This document shows positions 27,845 to 32,342 of a stretch of DNA of 64,000 bases, in pieces. The notes beneath the pieces were generated by a model. That model did no database searches. It was not told where the DNA came from and saw only the letters and a program-made list of their open reading frames with translations. Source of the stretch: Halobaculum sp. MBLA0147 (lineage in GTDB: Archaea; Halobacteriota; Halobacteria; Halobacteriales; Haloferacaceae); the NCBI RefSeq assembly GCF_041361345.1, contig NZ_JBGKAD010000001.1, positions 2,852,001 through 2,916,000 on the forward strand, written 5' to 3'. Positions within the stretch are counted from its first letter, which is position 1. Every line of letters begins with the position of its first letter. The position numbers and the translations under genes are program-made.

Positions 27845-28096
27845 GTGTCCGCTGCAGACGAACACATTCGAGTCAGCCGTCGGGTCAAGGAGGCACTCGA
27901 CCGTCGCCGGAAGGACGGGGAGTCGTACAACGACGTACTCGAACGGGTCCTCGACGAGGATCGTGATGTCCTCGCTGGGTTCGGCGCCTTCGAAGGGACC
28001 GACCGTGGGACGGCCACTCGTGAGGTCCACGAGCGGACGGCCGAGAAGTCTGGCCGACGGATCGAACGGATCGCGGAGCAACGCGACGACGAATGA
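27845..28096 (+). CDS. vapB: VapB-like antitoxin
   Basis: 83 residues from GTG 27845. The start, H-I-R-V-S-R-R-V-K-E-A-L-D-R-R-R, looks like the ribbon-helix-helix or short helical DNA-binding part of archaeal VapB antitoxins, and the E-S-Y-N-D-V-L-E-R-V-L helix fits. The C-terminal half is charged and probably disordered until bound to the toxin. It overlaps the PIN-domain toxin by ATGA, the usual arrangement. It would neutralise VapC and repress the operon; both are inferred from family and context. Confidence 0.8.
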   Translation: MSAADEHIRVSRRVKEALDRRRKDGESYNDVLERVLDEDRDVLAGFGAFEGTDRGTATREVHERTAEKSGRRIERIAEQRDDE

Positions 28097-28488
28097 GAGT
28101 CTTCGACGCGACGTTCTTGATCGACTACGGTCGAGGCGTCGATGCGACCGCCGAGTACCTACGTGAGTACCCCGACGAACGGTTCGTCGTCCCAGCACCG
28201 GTACTCACCGAGTTCCTTCTCGGGGCCGTACACGGTCGAGGAGCGACCGATCTCGCCAAGTTCGAGTCGGAACTCTCCTGGGCGGATGTCGTCGGACTCG
28301 ACCGAGGGACTGCGCGGAGTGCAGCCGTCGTCGCCGACGAGGTCGGCCCTCAGGGACCGCAGCTGACTGCCGTCGACGCGGTGGTTGCTGCCGTCGCTCG
28401 CGACCGCGGTGGGACCGTCGTCTCCGTCGACACAGATCTCACGCACGACGCTGTCCGTCGAGTCGTCGACGTAGACGAGTACCGTTGA
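28093..28488 (+). CDS. vapC: VapC-type PIN-domain toxin
   Basis: 131 residues. The acidic cluster of the PIN ribonuclease fold is complete: D5 in V-F-D-A-T-F-L-I-D, E40 in T-E-F-L-L-G, D95 in T-A-V-D-A-V-V-A-A and D113/D115 in S-V-D-T-D-L-T. These residues bind magnesium or manganese and cleave RNA, often initiator tRNA or rRNA in characterised VapC toxins. Translation is coupled to vapB. Base composition is a little lower in GC than in adjacent housekeeping genes, consistent with a mobile module. Confidence 0.85.
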   Translation: MRVFDATFLIDYGRGVDATAEYLREYPDERFVVPAPVLTEFLLGAVHGRGATDLAKFESELSWADVVGLDRGTARSAAVVADEVGPQGPQLTAVDAVVAAVARDRGGTVVSVDTDLTHDAVRRVVDVDEYR

Positions 28489-28518: not shown

Positions 28519-29379
28519 CTACCGTGACGACCGCCACCCCGTCGCATCGTCGACCACGTCGAAGGCCCGTCGGGCGCGGTCGCCGCCGGCCGTCTCGACC
28601 ACCTCGTCGTAGAACGCCAGTCGATCCAGCAACGCGTCCGTGTCGTACGTCGGCACGTCGAGTCGCGACGCCGCGACGGTCGCCTCCACCACCGCGAGCG
28701 CCGCGCGGTCGAACGAGCCGACCCGTTCGCGGCGGATCTCCGTCTCCACCGGGTGGAGCCGCCAGTCGACCCACTGCGTGCCACCGCGTTCGCCCGCAGC
28801 GACGCGCTCGACGGCGACGCGGACCCACGCGTCGGCAGACTCGACGACCGGGTCCGACTCCTCGCGGATCGTCAACGCCGCCTCCGCGAACGTCAGCGGG
28901 TCGACGGTGAACTGGACCACGCCCTCGCCCCGCTCGCGGAAGTTGCGCCACGTCCGCGTCCGTCCCCACGTCCGCGCCCACGCCGTGTCGTAGCCGTCGT
29001 CCGGGTCGTCCACACCGTCTGCGTCGTCCACACTGTCGGAGTCGTCCACACCGTCTGGGTCGTCTCCCTCGCCCGCGCCGACGTGGTCGTCACCGCCACC
29101 CGCGGGTGCGTGGACACCCAACGCGGCGACGTTCCACAGGTCGTTCGGGCCGAGCGTGGTCACGACCGTCTCCGTCACCCCGGTCAGCGCGACGGGCCAC
29201 TCTGCGTCTGCGTCGGCGGTGTCGCCGTCGCCGTCCACATCGCCGTTGCCGCCCGCGTCGCCGTTGCCGCCCGCGTCGCCGTCGCCGTCCACATCGCCGT
29301 TGCCGCCCACGTCGCCGTCGTCGTCCCCGTCCAACGCTCCCGTCGCCGACTCGGTGGTCGGCGGGGCGTCGTCGCTCAC
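28519..29379 (-). CDS. DUF447 family protein (cofactor cassette gene 4)
   Basis: 286 residues from GTG 29379, overlapping the CitG-like gene by GTGA. The N-terminus has two low-complexity acidic blocks (D-G-D/G-G-N-G-D repeats, and D-D-x-D-x-V-D-D repeats) inserted around the conserved core. The core, with P-N-D-L-W-N-V-A-A-L-G-V-H, A-R-T-W-G-R-T-R-T-W-R-N-F and F-T-V-D-P-L-T-F-A-E-A-A-L, fits DUF447, a split-barrel, flavin-reductase-like family. As I recall, DUF447 and CitG-like proteins also occur together in the tetrahydromethanopterin/methanofuran gene clusters of methylotrophs. The exact activity is unknown. Confidence 0.78.
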   Translation of the reverse strand: MSDDAPPTTESATGALDGDDDGDVGGNGDVDGDGDAGGNGDAGGNGDVDGDGDTADADAEWPVALTGVTETVVTTLGPNDLWNVAALGVHAPAGGGDDHVGAGEGDDPDGVDDSDSVDDADGVDDPDDGYDTAWARTWGRTRTWRNFRERGEGVVQFTVDPLTFAEAALTIREESDPVVESADAWVRVAVERVAAGERGGTQWVDWRLHPVETEIRRERVGSFDRAALAVVEATVAASRLDVPTYDTDALLDRLAFYDEVVETAGGDRARRAFDVVDDATGWRSSR

Positions 29380-30281
29380 GGCGACACCCCGCGACACAGT
29401 GCGACGTACAGCGCGGCGGCGGTGATGTCGGCGGTCGTCCCCGGATTGATCCCCTGCTCGACCAACTCGTCGGCCCACGCCTCGGCTGGCTCCAACGACT
29501 CTGTCTCGGCGACCTGCTCTGCCACCTCGCCGGCGCGGTCGGACACCTCGTCGGCCACGTCGGCGCCGTGTTGCGTCGCGACGAGCGTGTCCGGCGACTC
29601 GGCCAACAGGTCGAGGAACGCCCGTGCGGCGCGGTCGGTGACGGGGCCGTCGTCGTCGACGATCCGCTCGGCGGCGCGGAACGTCCGCGGGAACCCCTCT
29701 GCCCACTCGCGGGCGTTGTCGTCGTGCTCCGCGGAGTCACACAGCAACTCCCACAGCGTCAGGTCGCGCTCGACGAGCGTCGCGACCGCGTCCGCACCGC
29801 GGCGTACGTCCAGCGGCTCCATCCCGTCGGGCGGGTCGGCGACGGCCACGTCGACGTGCTCGAACGCGCGGTAGAACCCCGCCGCGTCCGCGACCGTCGT
29901 CGCTCGACAGACCTCGCGGACTCGCTCGCGGGTGACGCGCCGGTCGGCCGTCGTCGCGGCGACGAGCGGGACGAGCAACAGCAGACAGCCGAACTGCGTG
30001 TTGCCGCCGCGTTGGTGGCTCATCCCGGCGACGGCGGTCTCGAACGCCTCGCCGACCGGCTCGCCCGCGGCCGCCATCCGCAACCCCTCCCGTGCGCCGA
30101 CGGCACCGGCGAGGAACTGTTCCAAGTGGAGGTCGGCGGCGTCGCGGTGGCGGTCGACGTTGCCCGGCTTCGGCGTCCCGGCGACCTCCAACAGCAGCGC
30201 CAACTCCGCCGTCGCCGCCGGGTCACGCCGGACCCGATCTGCGTCCAGCGGCTCTCGTCGGATCGCGTCGTCGCGACTCAC
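29376..30281 (-). CDS. Triphosphoribosyl-dephospho-CoA synthase (CitG-like) protein (cassette gene 3)
   Basis: 301 residues from GTG 30281. Family signatures: L-L-L-E-V-A-G-T-P-K-P-G-N-V-D-R-H-R-D, F-L-A-G-A-V-G, Q-R-G-G-N-T-Q-F-G and the end G-I-N-P-G-T-T-A-D-I-T-A-A-A-L-Y-V. CitG makes the precursor of the prosthetic group of citrate lyase or malonate decarboxylase. Neither enzyme is present here, so a related transfer of a phosphoribosyl group in coenzyme synthesis is more likely. It overlaps both neighbours by GTGA, so all four cassette proteins are probably made together. Confidence 0.8.
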   Translation of the reverse strand: MSRDDAIRREPLDADRVRRDPAATAELALLLEVAGTPKPGNVDRHRDAADLHLEQFLAGAVGAREGLRMAAAGEPVGEAFETAVAGMSHQRGGNTQFGCLLLLVPLVAATTADRRVTRERVREVCRATTVADAAGFYRAFEHVDVAVADPPDGMEPLDVRRGADAVATLVERDLTLWELLCDSAEHDDNAREWAEGFPRTFRAAERIVDDDGPVTDRAARAFLDLLAESPDTLVATQHGADVADEVSDRAGEVAEQVAETESLEPAEAWADELVEQGINPGTTADITAAALYVALCRGVSP

Positions 30282-31141
30282 GACTGGCCTCCCTCCGGTG
30301 TCGCCGCCGACCGTCGGCGGTCGCCCCCCGAGTCGCCGGCCGCACTGGTCCCGTCGGCCCCCTCGAACCACTCGACTGCGGCGCGATTGACACGCCGCCG
30401 GACGACGGGGTCGTCGCTCGGCCGCCCGAGACTCACCGCGTCCGCGCCGTACGCGAGGTACTCGCGGACCGTCCGGCGGTCGCGGACGCCGTTGTTGGCG
30501 ATCACGACCGCCTCGGGAGCGGCGTCGGCGACGAGCGCGACGATCCCCTCCGTGTCCATCGCGTCGACGTGGAGCCAGTCGGCCCCCGCGTCGACGAGTC
30601 GCCGCGCCGTCGCCGGCAGGTCCACGCCGTCGACCTCCGCCCGGAGTTTCACGCTCGTCGTCGCTCCCGTGTCGCTCGCCGCGGCGACGTACCGCGCGAG
30701 CCGCTCCGTGTCGCGTGCCAGTGCCTCGCCGCAGCCGACCGCACACAGCTCCGGCTGGCGACAGTGGGCGTTCACCTCGACGACGGCGTCGTGCCGGGCG
30801 CACGTCTCGGCCGCCGCGCGGACCGGCGCGACACCGGTCGCACGGACGTTCACGCCGGGGCGAACTCGTACGTCAGCCAGTCGTCGCAACTGCTCGTCGA
30901 TCCACGCGACGGGGTCCGGCGGGAGGAACTCCGACCGCTCGCGGGCGACCAACTCGCGGGCCGCCTCGCGGCTCGGGTCGTCCAGTGCGACGCCGCCGAG
31001 GAACGCGACGGCGGCCTCGCCCGCGCCGGCTCGCGCCCACGCCGCGTCCGCGGCCCCGGACAGCGACGCGAGCGCGACCGGCGGGTCGAACGGCGTCGTC
31101 GCGTCGGCAGCCGGCCCTGTATCGGCCTCCCCAGAGGTCAC
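30278..31141 (-). CDS. Dihydrouridine-synthase-like flavoprotein (cassette gene 2)
   Basis: 287 residues from GTG 31141. It is an FMN-binding TIM barrel of the DUS type: [20 protein letters not shown] aligns with the catalytic-cysteine region of Dus enzymes, followed by V-K-L-R-A-E and [10 protein letters not shown] and a phosphate-binding [19 protein letters not shown]. It is shorter than tRNA-modifying Dus proteins and seems to lack their C-terminal helical tRNA-binding domain. With its position between cofD and CitG-like genes, this suggests reduction of a small-molecule intermediate, not tRNA. That role is inference. Confidence 0.72.
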
Positions 31142-32133
31142 TCCTCGACCACCTCCAGCGCCTCCCGACAGGCGTCCAACACCCGCTCGGCGTCGGCCGG
31201 GCCGTCGAGTGTCGTGTCCGTCCGGACGACCGGGCGGTCGAGGGTGGTCTCGTCGGCGTCGTCGAGGACGAACGCGTCGGCGAACGGGTACGCCTCCGCG
31301 ACGCCCGCGGTCGACGGCTCGTACCCCACACCCCGCATCAGCGCGGCCGCCGGCCCGGAGAACACCTCGTCGCCGACGAACGGCGACACGGCGACGACGG
31401 GTGTCTCCCGGAGCGCCGCCTCGACACCGGGCACCGCCAGCATCGGGCCGAGACTCGTCACCGGGTTCGACGGTCCGACGATCACGTCGTCCTCGAGTGC
31501 CGTCAGCACCGCGTCCGTCGGCGTCGCCGCCTCGGCGCCGCGGAACTCGACGTCCGCGACCGTCGGCTCGGCCCGTCGGTGGACCCAGTACTCCTGGAAG
31601 TGCATCCGGCCCTCGTCGGTGTGGATCAGACTCGCGACCGGGTCGTCCGTGACGGGGAGCAGGTCCACGTCGAGGCCGAAGGCGTCCGCGAGCGTCCGCG
31701 TGACCTCGGTGAGCGTGTGGCCCTCGTCGAGCAACGAGGTGCGGAGCACGTGGACCGCGCGGTCCCGGTCGCCGATCGTCATGAACTCGCCGACGCCGGA
31801 GAAGCGTCGCCACCGTGCGATCTCGCGGCCGGCGGTCTGTCTGTCGTCCGGGAGGAACCGCGGGCCGTCGTCGAGTCCCGCCGCGGCCGTCAACGACTGG
31901 ATCTCCTCGGTCGTCGTCGTCGTGTCGCCGTCGATCCCCCACCACGTCTCGCGGTCGAGTTCGCCGCCGCGAGCGAACAACACCGTGTCCACGTCCGGAC
32001 AGACGAGCAGCCCACCGATCTCCACGTCGTCGCCGACGTTGCCGACGACCGTCGTCGCGGCCGGCTCGTAGTGGGCCGCGAGTCCGTCGAGCAGCTTGGG
32101 GGTCCCGGTGCCCCCGGCGAGGAACGTCACCAT
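31138..32133 (-). CDS. cofD: 2-phospho-L-lactate transferase, coenzyme F420 biosynthesis (cassette gene 1)
   Basis: 331 residues. CofD joins the activated phospholactyl (or phosphoenolpyruvyl) group to the deazaflavin FO, forming F420-0. Hallmarks: [15 protein letters not shown] at the N-terminus, [23 protein letters not shown] and [14 protein letters not shown]. Length fits the family. It is the first gene of a four-gene string joined by GTGA overlaps. A TATA-like gatacaaac at about 32157-32167 lies 25-30 nt upstream, suggesting one promoter for all four. Confidence 0.93.
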
Positions 32134-32168: not shown

Positions 32169-32183
32169 CCCTCCGCGGGTGAG

Positions 32184-32311
32184 TGACGTGGTCGGGGTGG
32201 TGTCCACTTCCGGAGTGACGTGGTCGGGGTGGTGTCCACTCCCGGAGTGACGTGGTCGGGGTGGTGTCCACTCCCGGAGTGACGTGGTCGGGGCGGGGCC
32301 CGCTTCCGTAC
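32184..32311. repeat. 32-bp tandem repeat, four copies, between cofD and a nucleoside phosphorylase gene
   Basis: gtgacgtggtcggggtggtg recurs at 32184, 32216, 32248 and 32280 with an exact 32-bp period; the last copy decays (gtcggggcgggg). The copies fill the space between two divergent promoters (cofD at about 32162 and nucleoside phosphorylase at about 32316). Sequence is unrelated to the 32-bp array at 10947. Confidence 0.92.
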
Positions 32312-32342
32312 ACTTATGCCCAGCACGGGCGCACGGACGGGT

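Follow-up and report, generated by a model that had tools for sequence, protein, structure and literature searches.

To our knowledge, no enzymes are assigned to two steps of methanopterin synthesis, in which the ribosyl ring is reduced to ribitol and an alpha-ribosyl phosphate is added. In the synthesis of coenzyme F420, an archaeal reductase of dehydro-F420-0, "CofX", has been predicted, and nitroreductases encoded beside cofE were sought as candidates (PMC6450877); an archaeal F420 reductase or a source of 2-phospholactate is listed as open (PMC6450877 and PMC8498797). The part that Mch and Mer play in Haloarchaea has been stated to be unclear (PMC7599335). Here, we analyze a four-gene operon that bears on these pathways, located at positions 28519–32133 of a window of 64,000 nucleotides (the whole stretch of DNA analyzed; contig NZ_JBGKAD010000001.1, positions 2,852,001 to 2,916,000, assembly GCF_041361345.1) from the haloarchaeon Halobaculum sp. 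MBLA0147. It encodes CofD, a protein resembling tRNA dihydrouridine synthases (Dus-like), a CitG-like protein, and a DUF447 protein. We propose, with a probability of about 0.5, that the operon provides two coenzymes needed in one and the same reaction, namely F420 and a methanopterin-type one-carbon (C1) carrier.

Operon architecture and conservation

All four genes lie on the minus strand and are joined by three GTGA overlaps of 4 bases each (31138–31141, 30278–30281, and 29376–29379), in which the TGA stop codon is shared with a GTG start, exactly where an initial annotation of this DNA had placed them. The first gene, cofD (31138–32133, 331 amino acids), encodes the 2-phospho-L-lactate (or enolpyruvyl) transferase of F420 synthesis, and its product exceeds the equivalog cut-off of TIGR01819 (378.7 versus 257.45 bits). 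Its stop codon is overlapped by the GTG start of the gene for the Dus-like protein (30278–31141, 287 amino acids), which is described here as a triose-phosphate isomerase (TIM) barrel of flavin mononucleotide (FMN) type from its predicted fold. This protein reaches 133 bits (9e-39) against TIGR00736, the MJ0144 family, and thereby stays below the curated cut-off of 218.7. The last gene (28519–29379) encodes a DUF447 protein of 286 amino acids that matches PF04289 (70.1 bits) and PF20766 (37.8 bits), both above cut-off, and carries an N-terminal extension and an acidic low-complexity insert. Acidic stretches rich in Asp and Gly, located ahead of and within the DUF447 domain, are encoded by 18-bp repeats at 28998–29064 and 29221–29331, and relatives such as that in locus L093 do not have them.

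The third gene (29376–30281, 301 amino acids) encodes a putative ribosyl or triphosphoribosyl transferase, which matches the CitG superfamily (PF01874) with 225.4 bits (1.5e-66; gathering cut-off 27). This superfamily match would also agree with an enzyme making the coenzyme A-type prosthetic group of citrate lyase or malonate decarboxylase. Such a role is extremely improbable, since the protein scores 27.7 bits against CitG (TIGR03125) and 31.8 bits against MdcB (TIGR03132), for which the equivalog cut-offs are 272 and 282, and since the gene travels with those of DUF447 and of ribofuranosylaminobenzene 5'-phosphate (RFAP) synthase. The initial annotation, which had denied a link to citrate lyase, was correct in this respect.

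The distribution of the operon was surveyed by the presence or absence of its genes in 116 haloarchaeal genomes and by gene order in 80 named haloarchaeal loci, which were retrieved with the Dus-like protein as query. The genomic survey found cofD in 116 genomes, the Dus-like gene in 114, and the CitG-like and DUF447 genes in 113 each. The four-gene order is intact in 64 of the 80 loci, more often than chance would produce, and is thus shared across Halobacteria rather than unique to this genome. In 78 of the loci, cofD adjoins the Dus-like gene. In one family (f4), of which Natrinema is an example, the CitG-like and DUF447 genes often lie at another site, where they are still paired.

The exceptions to the conserved content fall into two types. 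Three genomes (G001, G007, and G018) lack the CitG-like and DUF447 genes, while cofD and the Dus-like gene are still adjacent, and the gene after them appears to be asd. In two others, from two genera (G002 and G069; loci L090 and L091), the Dus-like gene alone is missing and cofD, CitG, and DUF447 are kept. These reciprocal losses show that the operon is composed of two modules that are lost independently, cofD with the Dus-like gene and the CitG-like gene with that of DUF447, and that the Dus-like gene belongs with cofD and not with the CitG-like/DUF447 pterin pair. The initial annotation had tentatively placed the two middle genes in a common deazaflavin- or pterin-linked branch. A role in coenzyme synthesis stands, whereas a single branch does not fit the independent loss of the modules.

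Co-loss of RFAP synthase and Mer with the CitG-like/DUF447 pair

Among the 116 haloarchaeal genomes, the RFAP synthase homologue (HVO_2628 in Haloferax volcanii) is absent from exactly the three that lack the CitG-like and DUF447 genes, as would be expected if the pair still served the methanopterin pathway. Mer (HVO_1937 in Haloferax volcanii) shows the same pattern: it has no match in G001 and G007 and one at paralogue level only in G018 (9.7e-39), whereas every other genome contains a match with an E-value of at most 2e-79. All haloarchaeal Mer matches stay below the curated cut-off, and the designation "orthologue" therefore rests on this gap in scores. G001 and G007 are two species of one genus and G018 is Halobacterium salinarum DSM 3754; because the genes are present in other Halobacterium loci, they must have been lost independently at least twice. 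By a naive estimate, each added gene would share these three absences among 116 genomes with a probability of about 4e-6, although the true chance is larger owing to common descent and genome reduction. All three genomes retain cofD, the Dus-like gene, Mch, and two FolP paralogues; the retention of Mch and FolP argues against a general loss of folate chemistry. A search of open papers found no earlier report that RFAP synthase, CitG-like, DUF447, and Mer genes are lost together, and none tying this loss to methionine auxotrophy. In Halobacterium salinarum, methionine is essential (PMC2674319).

An independent physical link is provided by plasmid NZ_CP031312.1 of Halobellus limi, on which mer, DUF447, RFAP synthase, and two metE genes stand in a row. 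This row (L083, 6206–11842) also includes an F420-NADP reductase and has the appearance of a portable C1/methionine operon. In the genome from which the window derives, Mer is encoded directly after cofE (G000:C1:2443597–2444550, L095), a second linkage of F420 and C1 genes.

Further candidates for co-loss were considered. Mch was rejected, being present in all 116 genomes; MetE is missing only from Halobacterium salinarum; and the dihydropteroate synthase-like (DHPS-like) family TIGR00284 was uninformative, as no haloarchaeon has a member above cut-off.

The CitG-like/DUF447 pair in methanogens and bacteria

Outside the Haloarchaea, the CitG-like and DUF447 genes are adjacent in 29 of 30 loci of other Halobacteriota. 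Within 20-kb regions of this group, a DmrX-type gene (TIGR02700, dihydromethanopterin reductase) was found in 5 of 20, directly downstream of DUF447 in 4 of them, and a TIGR00284 gene in 3 of 20. A plasmid of Rhizobium gallicum carries the pair in a methanopterin cluster together with RFAP synthase, an MtdB-type dehydrogenase, Mch, an MptN-like ligase, Fae, a tetrahydromethanopterin (H4MPT)-linked protein, a DHPS-like protein, and a DmrX-like protein, which bears out the earlier suggestion that the two proteins co-occur in clusters of the methylotroph type. On bacterial plasmids more generally, RFAP synthase lies about 3–6 kb from CitG in at least 23 of 29 CitG records. Linkage of the pair to RFAP synthase and other H4MPT genes was thus seen in the bacterial cluster, in methanogens, and on the Halobellus plasmid, and we consider it highly probable that in methanogens and bacteria the two proteins act in methanopterin synthesis. 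DUF447 and CitG-like genes may already be included in a survey of auxiliary H4MPT genes that Adam, Borrel and Gribaldo published in 2019; among open papers, we found none that names DUF447 together with methanopterin synthesis.

A proposed methanopterin-type C1 carrier in haloarchaea

The four-gene co-loss, the methanopterin cluster context, and the Halobellus plasmid operon suggest that the probable product of the pair is the tail of a C1 carrier. We therefore favor, with somewhat more confidence than doubt, a function of the CitG-like and DUF447 proteins in methanopterin synthesis in haloarchaea as well, contrary to published annotation. The pterin side of what had been proposed as an undescribed F420 or pterin branch would then most likely be methanopterin-tail synthesis, acting with RFAP synthase and Mer. 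In the proposed sequence, the separately encoded RFAP synthase homologue would form an aryl-riboside. The DUF447 protein, whose homologues with solved structures (2iml, 2ptf, 2nr4, and 3b5m) have a fold that we take to be a flavin split-barrel and which on this ground fits the ribitol step, would probably reduce and open the ribose to ribitol. The CitG-like enzyme, which as a CitG-type transferase fits the ribosyl-phosphate step, would probably add an alpha-ribosyl phosphate, with adenine or pyrophosphate as the leaving group, as in the CitG reaction. The resulting ribosylated aryl-ribitol would be the tail of a methanopterin-type C1 carrier, from which Mer, using F420H2, could generate a methyl group, with methionine synthesis as the likely sink. 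We infer these individual reactions, those proposed below for the F420 module, and the presence of the carrier in haloarchaea from gene order, domain content, co-loss, genomic context, and predicted fold.

Several observations weigh against such a carrier. Its weakest link is the joining of the pterin to the aryl-riboside: no haloarchaeal genome of the survey encodes a TIGR00284 protein above cut-off, and the step would therefore need FolP or a FolP paralogue. Haloarchaea have two FolP-type (Pterin_bind) proteins, the second being a divergent match found in 11 of 12 genomes; it is not co-lost with the module, but could perform this reaction. In addition, Mch does not follow the loss of the module, and the retention of MetE in G001 and G007 is a partial failure of the co-loss prediction. 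G001, G007, and G018 are small genomes, in which genes are more easily lost, although other small genomes of 1.9–2.5 Mb (G021, G093, G010, and G066) keep all four genes of the operon. According to published annotation, haloarchaea use folate and are without methanopterin enzymes (PMC8305020).

In a different explanation, the CitG-like protein, DUF447, and the RFAP synthase homologue are leftovers of a methanogenic ancestor that make another aryl-riboside, no C1 carrier is formed, and the loss of Mer is unrelated. This would agree with the lack of TIGR00284 proteins and with the survival of Mch in genomes without the module, with the persistence of some H4MPT biosynthesis genes after loss of the pathway (PMC9635834), and with the argument that the haloarchaeal RFAP synthase homologue does not make RFAP (PMC8305020). 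It leaves aside, however, that Mer, a C1-carrier enzyme, was lost in exactly the same genomes and that the Halobellus operon joins Mer to DUF447, RFAP synthase, and two MetE genes, and we regard it as a possible but rather unlikely account.

The Dus-like protein and its candidate role in F420 synthesis

The AlphaFold model of the Dus-like protein is a TIM barrel (predicted local distance difference test score of 91) that ends at residue 264. A sequence search of the Protein Data Bank returned weak barrel matches only, while the solved folds nearest to the model are tRNA-bound DusC and dihydroorotate dehydrogenases, with similar scores. Cys127, Lys165, and His191 are invariant among 35 Dus-like sequences, as are residues typical of an FMN site. 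The initial annotation had noted the lack of a tRNA-binding tail, and both the end of the model and the sequences agree: in 39 haloarchaeal loci, only 0–37 residues follow the barrel, and no C-terminal helical domain is present. The DusC match and the invariant catalytic-type residues would be expected of a tRNA dihydrouridine synthase that stands beside cofD by chance. We consider this very unlikely, given the missing helical domain, the almost equal match to dihydroorotate dehydrogenases, and the score below the TIGR00736 cut-off, which no protein of the 116 haloarchaea exceeds. Moreover, the Haloferax volcanii genome has a Dus-like match, yet its tRNA is reported to be without dihydrouridine (PMC2584109).

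In methanogens, homologues of the Dus-like protein are about 113–121 residues longer and match methanogenesis marker 9. The corresponding TIGR03277 domain gave no match in the protein of the window, and the tails are too short to contain it in 39 of 39 haloarchaeal loci. In six methanogen regions (L067, L068, L072, L073, L076, and L078), the marker-9 type gene adjoins a divergent coenzyme F430 (cfb) cluster. As the gene for the longer form immediately precedes CitG in 14 of 20 loci of other Halobacteriota, the haloarchaeal protein might likewise act in the pterin module instead of F420 synthesis. This is unlikely, because it is kept in haloarchaea that have lost the pterin genes and Mer, is lost in G002 and G069 where the pterin genes are kept, and was not seen among the bacterial clusters examined.

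We instead suggest, speculatively, that the Dus-like protein is a candidate for the enolpyruvyl reductase of F420 synthesis, CofX. In favor of this are its constant place beside cofD, also where the pterin pair has been lost, its FMN-barrel oxidoreductase fold, its lack of domains other than the barrel, and the reported absence of dihydrouridine from Haloferax volcanii tRNA. CofD would attach the F420 side chain, and the Dus-like enzyme might reduce the enolpyruvyl double bond of dehydro-F420-0 or a precursor by hydride transfer from FMN. An FMN-type C=C reductase overlapping cofD is not among the candidates in the available part of PMC6450877, and a search of open papers found no published source for a cofD-linked Dus-like reductase. 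Against this assignment speak the two genomes that have cofD without a Dus-like gene, the position of the methanogen gene by CitG and DUF447 and not by cofD, and the preference of the tested archaeal CofC/CofD pairs, among which no haloarchaeal pair is mentioned, for 2-phospholactate (PMC8764529).

Flanking features

Upstream of the operon, a phosphorylase-like gene starts at 32316, divergently from cofD, and the gap contains a 32-bp tandem repeat (32181–32293, no strand) of 3.5 copies with 98% identity. The single promoter-like element of the initial annotation was not confirmed: a sigma-70 promoter scan, which models bacterial and not archaeal promoters, found none. On the other side, two small overlapping genes on the plus strand (27845–28488), which by eye resemble a VapB/VapC (PIN domain) toxin–antitoxin pair, are convergent with the operon.

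Discussion

In its strongest form, our interpretation holds that haloarchaea possess, besides folate, a methanopterin-type C1 carrier that serves F420-dependent Mer and the synthesis of methionine, and that the Dus-like protein is CofX or the source of 2-phospholactate, so that one operon serves both coenzymes. This full combination is improbable, but it would challenge the view that haloarchaea rely on folate only and keep no working methanopterin pathway, and it would assign two methanopterin steps, to the CitG-like and DUF447 proteins. The four-gene co-loss, which reaches a methionine auxotroph, would give a concrete answer to the role of haloarchaeal Mch and Mer, testable in Haloferax volcanii, and the Dus-like protein would become a candidate for the archaeal F420 reductase, or the source of 2-phospholactate, that is being sought.

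The closest described systems each share part of this organization. The H4MPT clusters of methylotrophic bacteria and methanogens contain the same CitG-like and DUF447 genes with RFAP synthase, and in bacteria DmrX, DHPS-like, Mch, and Fae genes are nearby, whereas haloarchaea have no TIGR00284 protein, their pair is coupled to cofD and the Dus-like gene, and RFAP synthase is in most cases encoded elsewhere. Methanogenesis marker protein 9, encoded upstream of CitG in methanogens, has a homologous barrel with 31–37% identity to the protein of the window, but the haloarchaeal form lacks the whole Cys-rich TIGR03277 domain of about 110 residues. With tRNA dihydrouridine synthases, the Dus-like protein has the FMN-type TIM barrel and the conserved Cys in common, but not the tRNA-binding domain. 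Finally, mycobacterial FbiB, an FMN-dependent dehydro-F420-0 reductase (PMC6450877), is similar in the proposed transfer of a hydride to the enolpyruvyl group after CofD/FbiA. FbiB is a nitroreductase fold fused to a glutamyl ligase, whereas the Dus-like protein is a TIM barrel encoded beside cofD, and the two resemble each other in proposed function only.

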